DNA of 20,346 nucleotides from a virus. Location of the stretch: IMG/VR virus record IMGVR_UViG_3300042298_002291, positions 1-20,346 of that record. One strand, given 5' to 3'. How positions within the stretch are numbered: position 1 is the first letter of the stretch; each line of letters begins with the position of its first letter. This document shows positions 3,727-19,970 of the stretch, piece after piece. The translations under genes were made by a program, and so were the position numbers. The notes beneath the pieces were generated by a model that searched no databases, was not told the origin of the DNA, and worked only from the letters and a program-made list of their open reading frames with translations.

Positions 3727-6036
3727 TTAGTTGAGGACGAAGCCGACTGCGATGGACTGCATGATGGAGGAGCCACCGCCCGACGCCGCCGCCCACTTCA
3801 CCCCCAGCGTTTCCGCCGAATCGACTGTAAGCACATGGCCGTTCGTGCCGCCCACAGGGAGCCGTGCCGCCGTATCCGCCGCCGAGGCCACGATGAGATC
3901 GCCTTTGGCGTCGAGGAGGGTTGCAGGGATGCCCGCGCTCACTGTGGAAGACAACTCCCCCGCCGACAGACTCAAGCCCGAGCCGATTTGGATCTCCTCG
4001 ATGGCTCCTGTGCTGGCTGTCGTTCTTCCGAGGATGCGGGCGGTGGATTGGGTTAGGCCGCTGGTTGTGATGGAGCCAGAGGCGGCGGCTCCTGTTACGT
4101 CTGCGACAACGTGGGTGTGGTTGCCTGCGGCGACCTGTGTGCTGCCTGTGCCGACAGGGAGGCGCGCCACATCCAAGGTTCCCGAGGTGATGGCCGAGGC
4201 GGCGTGAGTGTGCGAAGCTGCCGCAAAGTCAGTTGTCGCTGCGGCTGCTGCGGTGCCGAGGGTCGGCTTGTTAAGGATCTGCGCGTCACCGCTCGATGCG
4301 TTCCAGTCGGCGTTGACGTTTACTTCCGCGCCACTTGCAATGCCGTCGAGCTTGGTCTTGTCTGCCGTGGAAAGAAATCCAGCGACAGACTGTGTGGCGT
4401 CCGAGTGCGTGTGCGAGCTTGCCGCCGCGCCGACATCGGACGGAGTTCCGTAGGTGAGCTTGTTGCTGGTATTGTTCCAATAGACAATCCGATCCGCGCC
4501 CGCATCGTCTGCCGAGATTGCGCCCGATGAGACGGAAAAGATGTCTGCGGCGGTTGTTTCGATGGAGACGGTATCGCCGCCTCCTCCACCGCTTTGCGCC
4601 TCCCAAACTATCGTGCCATCGCCCTGTGCCACGGGAACGTAGTCGGCGCTGATGCCTGTGGCGGCGAGGTCAGTAACTTCGGTCGGTATGTCGTCCGTCA
4701 GCGCGACGGTGCCGCTTGCTGCTGGGAAATCGTATTGAGCCTCCAGCCCGCCGTCTTTTAAGTATTGCGCGAACATTGAAGAGTCGGTTGCGCCAAACGT
4801 CATACCAAACGCTGATGATGAAACTTCAGCACTTGGGTCGTATTGCTCCGCGCTTCCGTAGCTTAAAATGCCAATAATCGGATCGCCCGCCGTGCTGACG
4901 CCAACGAAGCGACCTGTTGGCGAATCGCCGCCCAGTCCGAGCTTAAATTTATTTACGCCTCCAGACGGCTGAGAATCTAATTGACTTAAAATTACAGGAT
5001 CGCTTCCCCCTGCGGCGTGACTTGCGGCGTGTGCCAACGTGCTGCTTGGTGTCCTCGCATCACTCAACCGCGCATCATTCCCCTCGCAAAAGCTGCCTGC
5101 CGCCGTGCCGAATGCCCCCGCCTCGATGACACCGTTGGTGCCTGTGCGGAGCGGGAGGTTGGCGGTGGTGCCGACTTTGCCGTCGTTGGTTAGGTTGCCG
5201 TGGGTGTGGCTGGTTGGGGTGCGGCTGTCTGCAAGGCGGGTGTCGTTGCCGAGAACGACTTGCGTGCTGCTTGCGTTGCCTGTTTTTGCCGTTTTTAGCT
5301 CAATGATATTTGAAGCAGCAGCGTCCGAAACATCAAATAAATTGGATTGATCGACCTCGACGCTTCCGGTTTGAGGGCTCACCCCGCTCCATTGTCCTGT
5401 TGCCTGCCAAGGAAAGCTCGCGGTGCTGCTCTTTTCAAAAAGATTAACATCTGCCTTGCTGGTTAAAAACCATTTAGACAAGTCGCTGTCCCACCAGATG
5501 TAGTTTCGCGTGGAGGTGTTCTCATACACGGCGCGGCTGTTGTCGCTGCCGTTTCTAATGTAGATCCCGCCATGAGTGCCGCTGCCCCCGCTTTGGGTGA
5601 CAAAAGCCGCGTCGGCAAATACATCAGACGGTTGATGATCGTGGTTGGCGTTGGCTGCGTTGATTGAGGCGGGTGTGATTGTGATTGCGCCCGTTTGCTC
5701 GTTCACGCTGGTCACGCCGCTCGCCGGGGCTGCGCCCCATTCGGGGATTCCGCCGCTGGACACCCTGAGGATTTGGCCGCTTGTGCCGATCCCAAGGCGC
5801 AACGCCGTCGATGCCCCGCGATAAAGGAGGTCGCCTTGGGTCGTAAGCGTTTCAATGCCTGTCCCCGCTGGCCCCTGCGCCCCGGTCGCCCCTGTTGCGC
5901 CCGTGGCTCCCGTTGCCCCGGCTGGCCCCGCTGGGCCGATGGTCGGCACGACAACATTGACCGTCTGCGGCGAAGGCACGCCAACCTCAACAGCGCTGGT
6001 GTTTAAGCTGACCTCGACTTTGTGATACGCGGCCAT
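3727..6036 (-). CDS. Tail fibre with collagen-like and HxH motifs (769 aa)
   Basis: Residues 1-33 are a short beta attachment region. Residues 34-60 are nine Gly-X-Y triplets (GPA, GAT, GAQ) forming a collagen-like rod. Five HxH motifs (132/134, 277/279, 542/544, 609/611, 640/642) match the iron-binding HxH knots of T4-type trimeric fibres. GNDTRLADSRTP (263-274) and GNDARLSDARTP (319-330) are repeated shaft modules. A GDL...AARL...G..G.VL module near 709-751 echoes the one at 67-103. Two internal parts (about 165-255 and 355-440) are in lower-GC DNA and look like inserted cassettes. The protein should form a trimeric receptor-binding fibre. The gene follows the BppU-like gene by one base. 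No chaperone or endosialidase domain is visible at the C-terminus. Confidence 0.9.
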   Translation of the reverse strand: MAAYHKVEVSLNTSAVEVGVPSPQTVNVVVPTIGPAGPAGATGATGATGATGAQGPAGTGIETLTTQGDLLYRGASTALRLGIGTSGQILRVSSGGIPEWGAAPASGVTSVNEQTGAITITPASINAANANHDHQPSDVFADAAFVTQSGGSGTHGGIYIRNGSDNSRAVYENTSTRNYIWWDSDLSKWFLTSKADVNLFEKSSTASFPWQATGQWSGVSPQTGSVEVDQSNLFDVSDAAASNIIELKTAKTGNASSTQVVLGNDTRLADSRTPTSHTHGNLTNDGKVGTTANLPLRTGTNGVIEAGAFGTAAGSFCEGNDARLSDARTPSSTLAHAASHAAGGSDPVILSQLDSQPSGGVNKFKLGLGGDSPTGRFVGVSTAGDPIIGILSYGSAEQYDPSAEVSSSAFGMTFGATDSSMFAQYLKDGGLEAQYDFPAASGTVALTDDIPTEVTDLAATGISADYVPVAQGDGTIVWEAQSGGGGGDTVSIETTAADIFSVSSGAISADDAGADRIVYWNNTSNKLTYGTPSDVGAAASSHTHSDATQSVAGFLSTADKTKLDGIASGAEVNVNADWNASSGDAQILNKPTLGTAAAAATTDFAAASHTHAASAITSGTLDVARLPVGTGSTQVAAGNHTHVVADVTGAAASGSITTSGLTQSTARILGRTTASTGAIEEIQIGSGLSLSAGELSSTVSAGIPATLLDAKGDLIVASAADTAARLPVGGTNGHVLTVDSAETLGVKWAAASGGGSSIMQSIAVGFVLN

Positions 6037-14174: not shown

Positions 14175-14555
14175 TTATCCGGTGATCAGCGGGTATTGGC
14201 TGGCATCGACCGAGAAAGCCGCAAAGGCTTCGCTCGTTTGCGAGCGGGTCGTGCTGTTGACCAAGACCGAGCCGGAAGTAATGCCGTTGGCGCTGGTCGT
14301 GTTGTTGATCGTCAGCGCCACGCCGGGGGCCGCGAGGCCGAGGCCCGTGGTCAATCCATTGGCAACGCCTTCGATGGTGATTGCCGCCATCGGCTTGTAG
14401 TAAGAGACGGCTACGACATCGCCTTGATCGTTGGTCAGTTCGACCTTTTCGCGTGAAGTCGTGCGGGTGAAAGAATTGATGATGATGCCAGTTTCCGCTG
14501 TGCAGCCGAAAACAACGGCGGCAGACGAGGAAGAGGTAATGGTGATCGCGGGCAT
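14175..14555 (-). CDS. Putative major tail tube protein (126 aa)
   Basis: The product is rich in beta strands and Ser/Thr/Ala: AITITSSSSAAVVFGCTAET, then SREKVELTNDQGDVVAVSYY, PMAAITIEGVANGL and ALTINNTTSANGITSGSVLV. This is the appearance of a small virion ring protein. It lies after the tail-completion gene and before the chaperone, the normal slot for the tail tube protein. At 126 residues it is short but near the small tube proteins of gene transfer agents (about 135). No enzyme motif is present. The alternative is a separate neck or tail-terminator protein. Confidence 0.5.
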   Translation of the reverse strand: MPAITITSSSSAAVVFGCTAETGIIINSFTRTTSREKVELTNDQGDVVAVSYYKPMAAITIEGVANGLTTGLGLAAPGVALTINNTTSANGITSGSVLVNSTTRSQTSEAFAAFSVDASQYPLITG

Positions 14556-14577: not shown

Positions 14578-15075
14578 TTACACCAGACGAGAAACGTGGA
14601 CGCTGAATCGGTAGCTGCGGACGGCGTGACGCTCTTGACGGCTAAACTCCATCGACCCTTGGCGAACCAAACCGTGCCAAGTGACCGAGGCGCGCGAGCC
14701 TTGCAAGACGGCCAGCAGTTGCGGGTCTTCGATTAAGGCCACGCAAGCCGACCAAAGCTGATCGGTAAATTCCTGCGGGGCTTTGTCGCACTGCTCCTCG
14801 TCTTGATCCGCAAGGGTTAGCTGACTAACCGTGACCTCGACCTCATAGACATCCCCGGTCGGGATCGACTCGCGCAAGCGGGCCGCGCGGATAACGATGG
14901 CGGGCAGTTCAAGATCGTCGCCGCTATCGCCACGCGCCACGGTAACGCCCGCCATGCCGTAGCCGCGCAGGGTGAAGCTAAACGTGTCGGCCACGCATTT
15001 CTCGACGGCCTCCTCCAGAGGTTCCGGGGCGCGGCGTTTGATCGACTGATAACTTAGCGGGACGGACTCTGGCAT
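14578..15075 (-). CDS. Putative tail terminator/completion protein (165 aa)
   Basis: The gene overlaps the preceding neck gene by 22 bases. The N-terminal helix (PEPLEEAVEKCVADTF) is followed by strands (ELPAIVIRAARL and GDVYEVEVTVSQLTL), a helix (FTDQLWSACVALIEDPQLLA) and final strands (SVTWHGLVRQGSMEF, SYRFSVHVSRLV). This alternation and length resemble tail-terminator proteins of siphophages such as lambda gpU, which cap the tube and join it to the head. Its place between a neck protein and the tube candidate supports this. The identification is structural-pattern and position based. Confidence 0.55.
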   Translation of the reverse strand: MPESVPLSYQSIKRRAPEPLEEAVEKCVADTFSFTLRGYGMAGVTVARGDSGDDLELPAIVIRAARLRESIPTGDVYEVEVTVSQLTLADQDEEQCDKAPQEFTDQLWSACVALIEDPQLLAVLQGSRASVTWHGLVRQGSMEFSRQERHAVRSYRFSVHVSRLV

Positions 15076-15377
15076 GAGAATATGAGTTCTTGCCCATCTT
15101 GGGCGCGTTCGATGCTGATGACGCGGTAGGTCTTAGTGACGCCCGCCGACAGGACTGTCAGCTTGCTCCCGACCTTGACCGCGCGGGTGTCGGTCGTGGA
15201 CTTAACGTGCAGGCCGATGTCGCGGGAAGGCATGAAACCACCTTCGGCAATGTCGCTTCCGACTGTTCCCTGTGTGACCGCCGCGCTAAACGTGGACGAA
15301 CCGAAAGTCACCGTTGCCGGAAGATCGGCAATGATGCTGTCGAGTTCGGTAGCGAGCCGCGCCGTGTCGAGGGCCAT
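15054..15377 (-). CDS. Head-tail joining/neck protein (107 aa)
   Basis: The product begins MALDTARLATELDSIIADLP, a helix, followed by strands (ATVTFGSSTFSAAVTQGTV, DIGLHVKSTTD, RAVKVGSKLTVLSAG, KTYRVISIERAQDG). A small beta barrel with an N-terminal helix is the fold expected for head-completion or joining proteins (lambda gpFII type). It begins just after the glycosyltransferase island and leads into the tail genes. No strong Shine-Dalgarno is present. The function is inferred from size, predicted strands and position. Confidence 0.55.
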   Translation of the reverse strand: MALDTARLATELDSIIADLPATVTFGSSTFSAAVTQGTVGSDIAEGGFMPSRDIGLHVKSTTDTRAVKVGSKLTVLSAGVTKTYRVISIERAQDGQELIFSCQSPSR

Positions 15378-15384
15378 GCTACGG

Positions 15385-16302
15385 CTACACTGTCAAGGCT
15401 TTGTCGGCGGCTTCTAAAAAGCGGCCAAATCCGACTTCGGCGCAGAACTCCCGGTGCGCCAAGGCGCAGCCCGCCTCGGCAATGCCGCGCAGCCTGTCGT
15501 AGTCAAGGGCGCGGATAAAGTCGCACAATTCAGCTTCCGGCAATCCTTGCGGAAACGTAACGCGATGCTGGCCGTCTAAGAAAAGCTCGTTGCCTTGGTC
15601 AAGCGGCTGGCACTCGACGATCAGCGACCCGCTTGCGGCAGCCTCGCAGCAACGGATGCTGTGAGCGCGCCCGTGCGCGGGCGGGCAAAGCACGGCGGAA
15701 AATTCGCGGAACAACGCGGCGACCCCATTGGCCCCGGCCAAGTTGCGCGGGGCGCTAAAGGCGCGCAACAAGCTCGCGCGATGCAGGATTTCCACAATGC
15801 GGATGCGCTCGGTTTTCCATGCGTTGTTGTGACCGATATAGCACAGTTCTTTTATGCGATTGTGCTGCGGGACGGCGGGGAACAGGTCGCTGGCAAACAT
15901 AATCGGGGCAAAGTCGGCCTTCATGTTCAAGGAACGAAACCACGCGACATCGCTTGTTTGCGCGGCGGCGTAGTAGTGCAGCCAGTTTTGTTCCGCGTGG
16001 AACTCCCGCCCGCCGGGGAAAACGTCATTGCCCGCAATCCATTCGGAAACATAGCCAAGCAGGGGTTTGCCCAGCGCCAGCAAGTCGGCATGATGGCGGC
16101 GAATAAAGTCCGCGTGCATATGCGGAGACACAAAGACCACGCAATCGGCGCTGCTTTGCCGCAAGATTTGCAGCACCCCGGCATGATCGTAGGGCATGGC
16201 AATGGCCGCGTTGCACATTCCATGCCGAAAAAGTTGCTGGCACAAACCGGAACCAAAGCTCACAGGCTCGTCGTGCCAGAAAACAATGTCGGCCACTTTC
16301 AT
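15385..16302 (-). CDS. GT-B-like glycosyltransferase (305 aa)
   Basis: I chose the ATG at 16302-16300 because it overlaps the upstream GT2 stop as ATGA; the longer ORF only adds shadow sequence. The C-terminal half has HSIRCCEAAASGSLIVE (214-230), the nucleotide-sugar binding signature of CgeB-like/GT4-type enzymes, with Glu220 in the E-x7-E-like region. The N-terminal half begins with a Rossmann-like strand (KVADIVFWHDEP) and contains CVVFVSPHMHADF and PLLGYVSEW. It would transfer a sugar to an unknown acceptor in the cytoplasm. It is the last gene of the glycosyltransferase island. Confidence 0.75.
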   Translation of the reverse strand: MKVADIVFWHDEPVSFGSGLCQQLFRHGMCNAAIAMPYDHAGVLQILRQSSADCVVFVSPHMHADFIRRHHADLLALGKPLLGYVSEWIAGNDVFPGGREFHAEQNWLHYYAAAQTSDVAWFRSLNMKADFAPIMFASDLFPAVPQHNRIKELCYIGHNNAWKTERIRIVEILHRASLLRAFSAPRNLAGANGVAALFREFSAVLCPPAHGRAHSIRCCEAAASGSLIVECQPLDQGNELFLDGQHRVTFPQGLPEAELCDFIRALDYDRLRGIAEAGCALAHREFCAEVGFGRFLEAADKALTV

Positions 16303-16874
16303 TTCTGAAGGGTGGTCTTGCTGCTGTCGTAGTTGTAGCGATGCAGGATTTGCGGGATGTGCGCTTCTGTCTCGGCCTCGGCCCAAAGGTGACGCAGCCA
16401 TAGCGCGTCCTCGTTGCGCCTCACTTGCGGCACGGCGTAAGCGCAGGCAAGTTCTCGCCGCCACGCGCACCAAAACCACGGCGGGCGTTTGGTCACGCCT
16501 CCGGGACGGAAGGGTTCGACCTCATGGCCGAGGCGGCAGTTGATGCGTCCCGTCTCGCCATCGACGCTGGCCCACTGGTCGTAAGTAATAACGTCCTTGT
16601 CGTGGCGGATGTTGTCGAGAACGAGGGTGAAGTAGCCTTCGCATAGAGCGTCATCATCGTCGAGAAAGGTGATATACTTGCCCCCTGCTGCGCGCAGGAG
16701 CTTGTTGCGGGCCTCCCCGATGCCGCACAGGAGGTTCTCGCGCAGCATTACTATCTCCACGTTGCGGCCTTTCACGCGAGCTTCCAGCGAGCGGAACAGG
16801 GCATTGGCCTCCTGCTCCCGCTCGGTGATGGTCGGGATAAGAACGGACAGGTCGGGCGTTGGTGCGCGCTTCAT
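16299..16874 (-). CDS. GT2 family glycosyltransferase (191 aa)
   Basis: The protein has the GT-A start LSVLIPTITEREQEANALF, GIGEARNKLLRAAGGKYITF and the metal-binding acid motif LDDDD (71-75), followed by the acceptor-side segments PWFWCAWRRELA and RRNEDALWLRHLW. These are the usual blocks of family 2 glycosyltransferases, with a short length (about 190) that lacks a C-terminal membrane anchor. The enzyme should use a nucleotide sugar in the cytoplasm. ATGA overlaps join it to both neighbouring glycosyltransferases, indicating co-translation. The acceptor is unknown. Confidence 0.85.
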   Translation of the reverse strand: MKRAPTPDLSVLIPTITEREQEANALFRSLEARVKGRNVEIVMLRENLLCGIGEARNKLLRAAGGKYITFLDDDDALCEGYFTLVLDNIRHDKDVITYDQWASVDGETGRINCRLGHEVEPFRPGGVTKRPPWFWCAWRRELACAYAVPQVRRNEDALWLRHLWAEAETEAHIPQILHRYNYDSSKTTLQK

Positions 16875-18559
16875 GAATGTTTCGCGTGGAACAATGTCTT
16901 AGCTCTTTCGTATTCCTCCGGATCGTTGCCGCGCTCATATGTTGCGTCCATCGACACTTTGCCGCCGAGCGGGTGAACGTGCTGAAAGACAAGATGCTTG
17001 GCGTCGATGATTGCCCCGGCCTTTTGCGCCCGCTGCGTGAGGTCGTTGTCTGAATAGACGTTGCGGAACGCCCCATCAAAGAGGCCGTGCGCCTCATACC
17101 AGCGGCGGGTCACAATCGCCATCGTGATCAGCCCGTCCTCGCGCAGCCCGTCCGAAACGCGCAAGACTTTAGGCGCGAACAAATCGCCGCCGAGTGCGTC
17201 GAGGATCAGCTTGTCCCAGCCGAGCGGCGGCTCGAAATCGTCGGCAATCTGAATCAGCACATCTCCGGTTGCGGCCTTGGCAGCGGTGTTCCAAGCGCCA
17301 ACCGAATAACCGCCCTCTGCGGCGATTACGTGGCGGAATCGGCTCAACTTCTCGCGGCTTTCGGTATCGTCCTCGTCAATGGCGAACCAATGCTCGACCG
17401 CCTCCGGGTTGCTGGCGCGGCCCAACCAGAGCGACATGGCGTTGATCGCCTTTGACCAGCGGCCACGGGTAGCGTGCAGGAGGCTAATGCGCGGCCTGCC
17501 GCCGTTTTCCAGCATCAAGTCCTCGACTTGCTTGGCCCTTGCCTCGTCTCCGTTGGCACGATGCGCCCATGCCATTGTGGCAAAACCCTTCCAGCCGTAG
17601 ATGTCGGGGCGGTGCGTCCATTCGTAGATTTTCGGTTCCTTGATTGTTAGGCAATGCTCGGCAGTCTTGACCGCTTCGGCGGTCTGCCCCGCGTCCATTT
17701 GCAAGAGTGCCAGCAAATGATGCGCCTCGCGCCGGGAGTCGCAGAGCTTGATCGCGCGTTGCAGCAAATCCTGCCCGTGTTCGTTTTTCTCGGCCATCAT
17801 GGCGAGGTTCAGCAAGACCTCGTAGCGATAGACGCCATCGAGGTTGTCGAGGCGTAGGGCTTGCAGTCCGTATTTGACCGCCTCTTCGCGCTTGCCGAGC
17901 AGGAAGAACTCATAGTGCAGATAGAAAGCGATGTGCTGCGTCTCTTGGTATCGCCAGAGCAGTATGTTGAGGTTGCGTTCCTGTGATCCGGTCTTGGCGT
18001 CGAGGGGTTGGTGAACAATGCGGATGTCCTTGCGGACGCGCACTTGCAGGGTGTCCTTGTCTTTGTCCTCCGTGACCGGGATGCACTTTTCGTGAACCCC
18101 GTTAAACCATGCCGCCGTGCCGCGCCGGAACAGGCGCTCGCGTAGGACGGACTTGCAGTGCTGCGGCAGTTCATACTCGGCCAGAATCCAATCCTCTTTG
18201 GTATCGGTGCAGGCTTGCTTGATCGTCTCGCCCATCCCTTCGGGCAGGGTATCGTCGCAGTCCATCCACATGAACCACTCGGCGGGCGTTACTGCGGCGA
18301 GGCGGAAGGCTTCGTTGCGGGCGGCGGCGAAATCATCCACGAAGGGCCACGATGCGGTGGCGGGGCTGTTGTGGTATTCCCCGACAATGCAACCGCGCTC
18401 ACGGGCAATCTGAAGCGATTTGTCGGGCTTCTGGCCCCCGATGGCACGAACGACAATAACGGTGTCGCTGACGGTGAAGGCGCTATCCAGCGCCCGTCCT
18501 ATAATCTCTTCCTCGTTGCCGCATATAAGGCACACGGCGACCTTCGACTGAATTTGCAT
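16871..18559 (-). CDS. Two-domain glycosyltransferase with TPR-like linker (562 aa)
   Basis: Residues 5-180 form a GT2 domain: VAVCLICGNEEEIIGRAL, a turn, then DFAAARNEAF (76-85) and WMDCDDTLPEG (98-108), the DxD metal site. Residues 205-345 are helical, TPR-like (REEAVKYGLQALRLDN, GQTAEAVKTAEHCL). Residues 355-562 form a second GT-A-like domain with RISLLHATRGRW, FAIDEDDTES (392-401), NTAAKAATGDVLIQIADDFE (424-443) and SDNDLTQRAQKAG. Such double GT-plus-TPR proteins occur in phage and bacterial glycan clusters. It is the first gene of the island, after the capsid terminator, and its stop overlaps the next start by ATGA. Acceptor unknown. Confidence 0.85.
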   Translation of the reverse strand: MQIQSKVAVCLICGNEEEIIGRALDSAFTVSDTVIVVRAIGGQKPDKSLQIARERGCIVGEYHNSPATASWPFVDDFAAARNEAFRLAAVTPAEWFMWMDCDDTLPEGMGETIKQACTDTKEDWILAEYELPQHCKSVLRERLFRRGTAAWFNGVHEKCIPVTEDKDKDTLQVRVRKDIRIVHQPLDAKTGSQERNLNILLWRYQETQHIAFYLHYEFFLLGKREEAVKYGLQALRLDNLDGVYRYEVLLNLAMMAEKNEHGQDLLQRAIKLCDSRREAHHLLALLQMDAGQTAEAVKTAEHCLTIKEPKIYEWTHRPDIYGWKGFATMAWAHRANGDEARAKQVEDLMLENGGRPRISLLHATRGRWSKAINAMSLWLGRASNPEAVEHWFAIDEDDTESREKLSRFRHVIAAEGGYSVGAWNTAAKAATGDVLIQIADDFEPPLGWDKLILDALGGDLFAPKVLRVSDGLREDGLITMAIVTRRWYEAHGLFDGAFRNVYSDNDLTQRAQKAGAIIDAKHLVFQHVHPLGGKVSMDATYERGNDPEEYERAKTLFHAKHS

Positions 18560-18588
18560 CTGCCCCGTGGCAGACTGTCAATCAAACG

Positions 18589-18613
18589 AAAAACCCCGCC
18601 CTTTCGGGCGGGG
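18589..18613 (-). terminator. Rho-independent terminator after the major capsid gene
   Basis: On the minus strand the 8-bp stem CCCCGCCC/GGGCGGGG encloses a GAAA tetraloop and is followed by five T residues (stem 18594-18613, T-run 18593-18589). It lies 28 bases beyond the capsid stop, in the leftward direction of transcription. It should end most transcripts that come from the head genes and lower expression of the glycosyltransferases behind it. Confidence 0.85.
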
Positions 18614-18641
18614 TCTTGCACACACACAGAACCAGCAAACT

Positions 18642-19604
18642 TTACGCGTAGGACGTGTCGATGCCGATAGCGCAGGAAGCGTCGATGAGCTTCTCCGAGG
18701 TATTGTGGCGGCAGCGGATGACGTTGGAGCGGCGGGCCTCGTCGCGATAAGTCTCGGTGACGAGCGGCGTCGGGCTATCCTCGTTCCACAACAGGGTGCG
18801 GCCAAGTCCACCAGCGGTGAACTCACCAGCGCCGAGCTTCGCCAGAACAATCTTGGAGTTGCCCCAGATGAAGGAACCGGAATAGCTCTGACCTTTCTTC
18901 GCGCCGTTCTTCGCGCCGCGGCCGATGAGGACGCGATTGACGTTGAGGGCGGCGGCAACTTCCTCGGCGGAAGCAGGACGGGCCTGCGCCACGTTTTTCA
19001 CGGGGCCGAAAAGGTTGTTGAGGAGCTTGGTCGTGCGACGAACGCGATTGAAGACCTGCAAGGACATGATGAGCGTGTCGGCCACCACGTTTTTCTTGGC
19101 GAGTTCGGTCATCGCGTCATCGACATCTTTGGCGAGGTCGAGCGTGTCGATCGAGCCAGCGGTGTAAGCGGCATTGGCGCTGATGGCGCTGATGCCAGAA
19201 CCGAAAACCAGATCAGCAACGCGCTGCTCATGCGAGATGAGGAGGCTGTTGTTGAGGAAGGTCGCGGACGAAACTTCCACATCGAAGTAGCGGCCAAGGT
19301 CGGCGCTCGTCTCATCCGGCAGCAACTCTTCCAACTCGTAGCTGGTGCAGGAGTAGTTGTCGGTGGTGAAGCGGCGGGTGACGCGCGAGCGGTCAGTGCC
19401 GGGAGCAGTCTTGAGCGCATCGGCGTTGTAAGCCTCACCGGGGCCGAGGTCGATCTTGACGTATTCGCCAGAGCGAGCCGGAACCGAATAGACGGGAAGA
19501 ACCTCAAGGCCGATGAACGGCAGGGCTGCGGAGTTCGACGCCGCCTCGAAAACCGCTTGCGAGATTTCCGCGCGGGGCAGGGCGTTAGAGTTTGAGTAGG
19601 CCAT
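18642..19604 (-). CDS. Major capsid protein (320 aa)
   Basis: The 320-residue protein follows a decoration-like gene and is followed by a strong terminator, consistent with high expression. The N-terminal region is helical (AEISQAVFEAASNSAALPFI), followed by a long strand/loop (YVKIDLGPGEAYNADAL), TTDNYSCTSYELEELLPDETS and a spine-like helix (RVADLVFGSGISAISA). The C-terminal half has DVDDAMTELAKKNVVADTLI, LNVNRVLIGRGAKNGAKKGQ, SYSGSFIWGN and ETYRDEARRSNVIRCRHN, a pattern shared by HK97-fold coat proteins of the Mu-like and related groups. No N-terminal delta domain cleavage site is evident. The start lacks a Shine-Dalgarno. Confidence 0.85.
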   Translation of the reverse strand: MAYSNSNALPRAEISQAVFEAASNSAALPFIGLEVLPVYSVPARSGEYVKIDLGPGEAYNADALKTAPGTDRSRVTRRFTTDNYSCTSYELEELLPDETSADLGRYFDVEVSSATFLNNSLLISHEQRVADLVFGSGISAISANAAYTAGSIDTLDLAKDVDDAMTELAKKNVVADTLIMSLQVFNRVRRTTKLLNNLFGPVKNVAQARPASAEEVAAALNVNRVLIGRGAKNGAKKGQSYSGSFIWGNSKIVLAKLGAGEFTAGGLGRTLLWNEDSPTPLVTETYRDEARRSNVIRCRHNTSEKLIDASCAIGIDTSYA

Positions 19605-19616
19605 AGTAGTAGTCGG

Positions 19617-19970
19617 TTAGAAGCTTTTCTTGGGAACGGCGATTTCCACGATGTCATTGGTCGTGCCCGCGTTAATCGCAAAGCCAACCGAAACACCGCC
19701 AGCCGAGGCAACCTTGCCGTCAGCAATTGCGTGCACGACAGCGCCAGCGGCAAGTCCTGCGCCGGAAACAGTTGCCAAGTAGGTCGGGTGGAAAAGTTTG
19801 ACGTTCACCGTGCCAGCCGCCGCAGCGTCCTCTTGGGTGAACCCGATGGCCGCACCGTTGGTGGCGGCGACAACCTCGTTCTCCGTAGTGTGGAGTTTGA
19901 CGAGGCGAAATGCGCTGATCGCGGCGTTGGCGACGAACGAGCGGTTTGTTGAATCAACTTGGGATGCCAT
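19617..19970 (-). CDS. Capsid decoration/head-stabilising protein (117 aa)
   Basis: The 117-residue protein is of the DUF2190-like small head protein type: helix/strand start (MASQVDSTNRSFVANAAISAF given in part: FVANAAISAFRLVKL), an Ala/Gly-rich middle (AIGFTQEDAAAAGTVNVKLF, SGAGLAAGAVVHAIADGK) and a final strand AINAGTTNDIVEIAVPKKSF. Such proteins form spikes or stabilise capsids and often sit between the scaffold/protease and the capsid gene. This is its position here. It has no Shine-Dalgarno and starts 14 bases after the previous stop. Confidence 0.75.
   Translation of the reverse strand: MASQVDSTNRSFVANAAISAFRLVKLHTTENEVVAATNGAAIGFTQEDAAAAGTVNVKLFHPTYLATVSGAGLAAGAVVHAIADGKVASAGGVSVGFAINAGTTNDIVEIAVPKKSF

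Follow-up and report, generated by a model that had tools for sequence, protein, structure and literature searches.

Glycosylated phage particles have been established for a few mycobacteriophages and are otherwise rarely suspected, according to three papers on the subject (PMC12363180, PMC11600133, PMC11256854), through which we also cite the work of Freeman et al. 2023. These papers describe glycosylated proteins in Che8, Corndog and Myrna, with the capsid and the tail tube among the modified proteins, an O-methyltransferase gene together with three glycosyltransferase (GT) genes in the cluster O phages, and an essential GT of Che8 that is gp110, not gp108. They discuss phage glycan use mainly as a shield against mammalian antibodies. 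In the Chlorovirus PBCV-1, which encodes its own GTs and the protein A064R with a predicted methyltransferase domain, the major capsid protein carries methylated glycans (PMC5408694). In bacteria, the enzyme GmaR moves GlcNAc onto flagellin and its TPR part has been proposed to recognise this substrate (PMC9638930).

In this study, we analyse a 20,346-base IMG/VR virus record, referred to as the window in its whole length, in which three GT genes (GT1, GT2 and GT3) form an island beside the capsid gene. The group of phages bearing GT1 resembles the glycosylated mycobacteriophages in having tandem phage GT genes; an O-methyltransferase gene accompanies these in many relatives of the window but not in the window itself. 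We consider the island to be a virion-glycosylation cassette, with a probability of roughly 0.8, in which GT1 would start and extend a glycan, GT2 would extend it, and variable genes would cap or methylate it.

Results

Gene order and expression signals

The main genes of the window all lie on the minus strand and follow the order head, island, neck, tail-tube-like gene, tape measure and tail (Table 1). The head part comprises a partly cut ORF and the genes of a decoration-like protein and the capsid, and the island is followed by the genes of two neck-type proteins, the tail-tube-like protein, which is probably the tail tube, and, farther on, the tape measure (phrog_9483, 3.5e-22). The first-pass annotation had described three GT genes joined by ATGA overlaps, placed behind the capsid terminator and ahead of the neck genes, and the ORFs were indeed found at those minus-strand positions. 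The ATGA at 16871-16874 is common to the GT1 stop and the GT2 start, and that at 16299-16302 is common to GT2 and GT3, for which the longer GTG frame of the ORF list is not needed. The island is not a chance arrangement, because it recurs in relatives and its genes are under purifying selection (dN/dS of 0.09-0.21 for GT1 and 0.05-0.15 for GT2).

Table 1. Positions of the island, its neighbours and the candidate substrates in the window.
Feature	Coordinates	Strand	Description and evidence
GT1	16871..18559	-	562 aa; GT-A/TPR/GT-A; Pfam, AlphaFold, profile matches, capsid adjacency
GT1 first GT-A domain, residues 5-190	17990..18547	-	SunS/GmaR type; W-x-x-x-DDFAAARN, WMDCDD and VHEK motifs
GT1 TPR helices, residues 191-353	17501..17989	-	Helical repeats in model; TPR matches in Pfam and PDB
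GT1 second GT-A domain, residues 355-562	16874..17497	-	Alignment, VIA, Tribute gp34 homology
GT2	16299..16874	-	191 aa; GT-A; Pfam, mycobacteriophage and Gordonia phage homologues
GT3	15385..16302	-	305 aa from ATG; GT-B type; variable slot
Major capsid protein, candidate substrate	18642..19604	-	phrog_1005 1.6e-26
Decoration/cement-like small head protein, candidate substrate	19617..19970	-	phrog_673 9.4e-10; weak Phage_cement_2
Neck protein 1, first gene past the island	15054..15377	-	Position; conserved in relatives
Tail-tube-like protein, candidate substrate by analogy with mycobacteriophages	14175..14555	-	Upstream of tape measure; conserved in both relative groups
Intrinsic terminator in the capsid-GT1 spacer	18590..18617	-	Strong
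TTGACA hexamer directly after terminator	18576..18581	-	Putative; possible promoter element of GT operon

A strong hairpin was present in all 19 capsid-GT1 spacers inspected, and TTGACA followed it in 18 of these 19. A search for a complete sigma-70 promoter in front of GT1 found none. The terminator would largely stop transcription from the capsid gene, and the GT enzymes, with their translation coupled, would then be made in smaller amounts; we infer a separate and weaker transcription of these enzymes.

GT1 is related to protein glycosyltransferases

Pfam recognised two Glycos_transf_2 (PF00535) stretches in GT1 (2.5e-9) together with TPR matches. The AlphaFold model based on a 36-sequence alignment reached a pLDDT of 90.3 and a pTM of 0.84, and that based on 16 close sequences a pLDDT of 62. 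When the GT1 profile was compared with the PDB (E 0.001), the only GT matches were GmaR (1.1e-10), SunS (7.2e-10) and ThuS (7msk, 5.6e-6), the remaining match being a consensus TPR protein. The stretches common to GT1 and these three enzymes surround W-x-x-x-DDFAAARN, the acidic W-x-x-D-x-D-D and VHE. Foldseek ranked ThuS and SunS first (about 1e-13), and VIA aligned residues 1-294 of the model with SunS 7msp and ThuS 7msk at Z 20.9 and an rmsd of 3.2-3.3 A over 266-269 residues, which take in the TPR helices. For the second GT-A domain, the VIA matches were WrtF (Z 18.2), RmlT (17.3) and GalNAc-T2 (17.3), near-tied scores that express a general GT-A likeness. This domain is homologous to Streptomyces phage Tribute gp34, and DD 440-441, S503 and D504 are invariant in it; in the alignments of 16 and 36 sequences, neither GT domain shows any change in its acidic, catalytic-type motifs. 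No full-length GT1-like enzyme was found in cultured phages.

GT1 thus has a GT-A domain followed by TPR helices and is related to SunS and GmaR in both sequence and fold. GmaR, the Listeria flagellin O-GlcNAc transferase, shares with GT1 the N-terminal GT-A domain, the TPR part behind it and the common motifs, and its substrate is a multi-copy structural protein, which we count as a likeness to the role proposed for GT1. However, GT1 has a second GT-A domain where GmaR has an anti-repressor part. The glycocin S-glycosyltransferases SunS and ThuS, the closest fold match of residues 1-294, have small peptide substrates and a Cys linkage and, unlike GT1, are without a second GT domain. A GT-A/TPR enzyme can act on non-protein acceptors too, and a common fold is not a common function; fold likeness alone is therefore no proof, and we read GT1 as protein-acting because, among the GTs in the PDB, only enzymes that act on proteins are related to it at the sequence level. 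We propose that GT1 is a protein glycosyltransferase and the core gene of the cassette, and that its TPR part may be the substrate-docking part.

GT2, GT3 and the supply of sugars

GT2 matched Glycos_transf_2 (1.3e-10), and its homologues in cultured phages (57 records) all belong to Mycobacterium and Gordonia phages, among them Gordonia phage Forza gp93 (8e-25) and mycobacteriophage LittleE gp15 (1.5e-22). GT2 is also homologous to a GT of a phage whose capsid is reported to be glycosylated, namely the N-terminal domain of Che8 gp108 (29% over 184 aa, 1.5e-17; profile 2.6e-22). GT3 matched Glyco_trans_1_2 (PF13524, GT-B type) at 1.4e-4, under the curated cut-off, which a homologue in a relative (L016:10698-11615) clears with 29 bits against 25. 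Neither GT3 nor the Fringe-like GT described below had a counterpart in the cultured phages searched.

That the locus has no gene for sugar synthesis, as had been claimed from the letters, holds for the window, in which there was no NTP_transferase and no Epimerase match. Ten related records were likewise free of NTP_transferase matches, and only one of them (G006) had an Epimerase-family gene, whose best model, dTDP-glucose 4,6-dehydratase, scored 5.7e-48 but under the model cut-off. The sugar donors are therefore likely to be host nucleotide sugars.

GT1 is tied to the capsid gene

Viral contigs fetched by the capsid and by GT1 yielded about 30 close relatives with capsids 82-93% identical to that of the window, and a second group with capsids 51-55% identical was fetched by profiles. 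The scans cover the best 80 loci each, and the counts refer to the matches listed. GT1 was the next gene after the capsid gene, within 2 kb, for 56/56 distinct capsid alleles listed (capsid-fetched, with at least 1.5 kb downstream), and the capsid gene lay just upstream of GT1 for all 79 distinct GT1 alleles listed (GT1-fetched). When all listed loci were pooled, the capsid gene led to GT1 in 102/102 and GT1 to the capsid gene in 107/107, the interval containing an extra gene or a longer gap in seven. Where the capsids are about 51% identical, GT1 is still 43-48% identical, whereas neck protein 1 is only about 27% identical. With this strict linkage, GT1 has the behaviour of a core head gene, although the linkage by itself could reflect a stable gene order.

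Relatives without the island were sought, and there were none among the listed relatives with a capsid identity of at least about 51%. More distant phages, namely Jenst, TJ1 and Bise, whose capsids are 23-29% identical to that of the window or of the second group, have no annotated GT by the capsid gene. When capsid C-termini were compared for a common Ser/Thr tail, as in mycobacteriophages, the C-terminal Thr was seen in the GT-less Jenst as well and is thus not informative. The window and all its GT1-bearing relatives are metagenomic, and a capsid search of bacterial genomes for the host returned a single 3.5-kb contig from a Thermoleophilia MAG, which may be phage DNA binned there in error.

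Accessory genes are exchanged around a constant core

Two slots of the island hold extra genes in relatives, including methyltransferases that are absent from the window. In the close relatives, the GT1-GT2 slot is empty, as in the window, or holds a Methyltransf_24 gene (3.6e-21) or an FkbM-like methyltransferase (0.0008-0.0035, under the Pfam cut-off), and the slot after GT2 is empty or holds GT3, a Fringe-like GT (3e-6), or a methyltransferase with an inverted Fringe-like gene. An O-methyltransferase beside the GT genes is thus found in the GT1-GT2 slot of many relatives and, as a fusion, in Che8. A record search with PF05050 gave no match, because the FkbM-like genes score under its limits. 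The second-group islands contain DUF5672 proteins, GT-methyltransferase fusions, Methyltransf_23 and FkbM genes. Even relatives whose neck and tail-tube proteins are 97-100% identical differ in these slots. Three of them (L017, L018 and L022) are 98-100% identical to the window in neck 1, neck 2 and the tail tube and carry an FkbM-like gene without GT3, and two of these, L018 and L022, also have the Fringe-like GT. The GT3 copies of L007 and L012 are 97% identical to that of the window, with a dS of 0.09-0.11 against 0.56 for the capsid gene, which is a sign of recent GT3 exchange.

Discussion

We take the earlier proposal of action on a virion protein to be supported. Three observations favour such a target over DNA or a host polysaccharide: GT1 stays with the capsid gene over a wide divergence, the nearest relatives of GT1 act on proteins, and GT2 is homologous to GTs of mycobacteriophages that have the same layout or whose capsids are reported to be glycosylated. 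According to the mechanism we propose, GT1 would use its TPR part for guidance and its first GT-A domain to put the first sugar on Ser or Thr of a head-tail structural protein, Cys being a less likely acceptor side chain. The second GT-A domain and GT2 would lengthen the glycan, and GT3, or in relatives the Fringe-like GT and the O-methyltransferases, would add or cap the outer residues, all presumably with donors taken from the nucleotide sugars of the host. As a hypothesis, the capsid or the decoration protein is a plausible substrate, and by analogy with the mycobacteriophages the tail tube would be an equal candidate. Since phages exchange these outer genes, particles could differ in their surface glycans while being built of almost identical proteins.

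The virion could also be glycosylated on a tail or fibre protein, for example the collagen-like tail protein of the window (3727-6036, with GAT repeats). O-glycosylation is known from collagen-like proteins of bacteria, the collagen-like stretch of the window has Thr-bearing triplets, and a collagen-like protein directly follows neck 1 in many second-group phages. Nevertheless, we consider this target unlikely, since the collagen-like stretch of one relative (G007) consists of a few triplets without GXT and yet GT1 and GT2 are kept there, and since it is the capsid gene that GT1 constantly adjoins.

Modification of a host surface polysaccharide, as in receptor masking or serotype conversion, would make the place in the head module incidental, and we regard this as improbable. 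Genes of serotype conversion usually occur as patchy morons in changing places, whereas GT1 sits fixed by the capsid gene in all relatives examined, and the nearest relatives of its first half act on proteins. The island is without GtrA/GtrB-like membrane partners, and no membrane-anchor-like segment of the kind expected of Gtr-type enzymes was found in GT1-3 (maximum KD19 1.35). Against these observations stand the resemblance of the C-terminal domain of GT1 to the polysaccharide GTs WrtF, TarS and RmlT, an integrase-like protein in G007, which was assigned by reading its sequence and makes lysogeny possible, and the ability of temperate-phage GTs to alter the host serotype (PMC12619734, PMC10955285).

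We consider it very improbable that GT1 serves chiefly in scaffolding or assembly and that its GT domains are vestigial. Its TPR part and its fixed place by the capsid gene would suit such a role, and GmaR is a bifunctional GT and regulator (PMC9638930). However, the acidic motifs are invariant in both GT domains, and the turnover of the accessory GT and methyltransferase genes would be pointless unless glycans were made. Glycosylation of the phage DNA at hypermodified bases is the least credible reading, because, although DNA-modifying phage GTs exist and a PHROG matching the methyltransferase slot is labelled 'DNA methyltransferase', the GTs are fixed in the head module, no base-hydroxylating or modified-base companion gene was recognised in the window (a genome fragment, with the ORF list of G007 read by eye), and the methyltransferases are of the Methyltransf_24, _23 and FkbM types and not of DNA-methyltransferase families.

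Returning to virion glycosylation, we tentatively suggest, though with less than even confidence, that glycosylation of the capsid module is obligatory in this clade, that GT1 evolves with the capsid, and that swappable outer genes lead to a serotype-like surface variation on a nearly constant shell. A large group of environmental phages in which the capsid gene and a protein-type GT stay together, and in which the outer glycan genes are exchanged, would indicate that glycan coats matter to phages generally and not only in animals, and the GT1 island offers a defined enzyme and defined candidate substrates for testing this.

Comparison with known systems

The cassette resembles the capsid glycan system of PBCV-1 in that virus-encoded GTs and a methyltransferase would build capsid glycans. 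However, this is an analogy only, because PBCV-1 is an unrelated algal virus with N-linked glycans and other GTs. Among the mycobacteriophages, Che8 has its GTs near the genome end, whereas those of the window adjoin the capsid gene. The Che8 protein gp108 joins a GT2 domain to Methyltransf_24, a family that in the relatives of the window has a separate gene beside GT2. The layout of the window is closer to that of the Omegavirus LittleE, in which the order is capsid, GT, kinase, MTase-GT, GT, GT and head-tail connector; there, the GT2 homologue gp15 directly follows the capsid gene, the island ends at the head-tail connector, and a GT-MTase fusion is present as in the second-group relatives. 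Unlike the window, LittleE is without GT1 and has the kinase gene. The kind of system we propose is known from mycobacteriophages, and what is distinct here is the core enzyme, its strict linkage to the capsid gene and the exchangeable capping genes.

The capsid-GT1 spacer

The hexamer TTGACA lies immediately past the capsid terminator and is present in 18 of the 19 capsid-GT1 spacers compared, those of distant relatives likewise carrying it right behind the terminator. A -10 hexamer to pair with it was looked for, and none was found.

Gene content of the relatives

One second-group phage encodes a GT1 that is extended by an additional C-terminal part, and in another relative a Fringe-like glycosyltransferase gene is inverted within the island, behind a methyltransferase gene. 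A sugar-nucleotide dehydratase/epimerase gene, immediately preceded by an AAA ATPase, was observed upstream of the head genes in one relative (G006, the record of locus L022). Collagen-like stretches occur in a tail protein of the window and, in many second-group phages, in a protein encoded directly after neck 1. One capsid-GT1 relative is on a 3.5-kb contig (JAEMTW010000194.1) binned in a Thermoleophilia MAG from a bloom, and this contig is possibly mis-binned.

Coordinates of the features in the window and in related loci (L) or records (G)
Feature	Source	Position	Strand	Remark
TTGACA	window	18576-18581
Collagen-like tail protein	window	3727-6036	minus	GAT repeats
Collagen-like protein after neck 1	L104	8577-10061		example
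Dehydratase/epimerase	G006	17712-18431
Island Methyltransf_24	L003	12709-13251
Fringe-like GT	L021	9458-10123	minus
Extended GT1	L069	8403-10748		781 aa

Comparison with phrog_2675

In the PHROG comparison, the Methyltransf_24 protein of the island is matched by one part of phrog_2675, and the C-terminal part of GT1 is matched by a different part. Because phrog_2675 thus resembles, from its sequence matches, a family of glycosyltransferases fused to sugar-type methyltransferases, we consider its PHROG label, 'DNA methyltransferase', to be doubtful.
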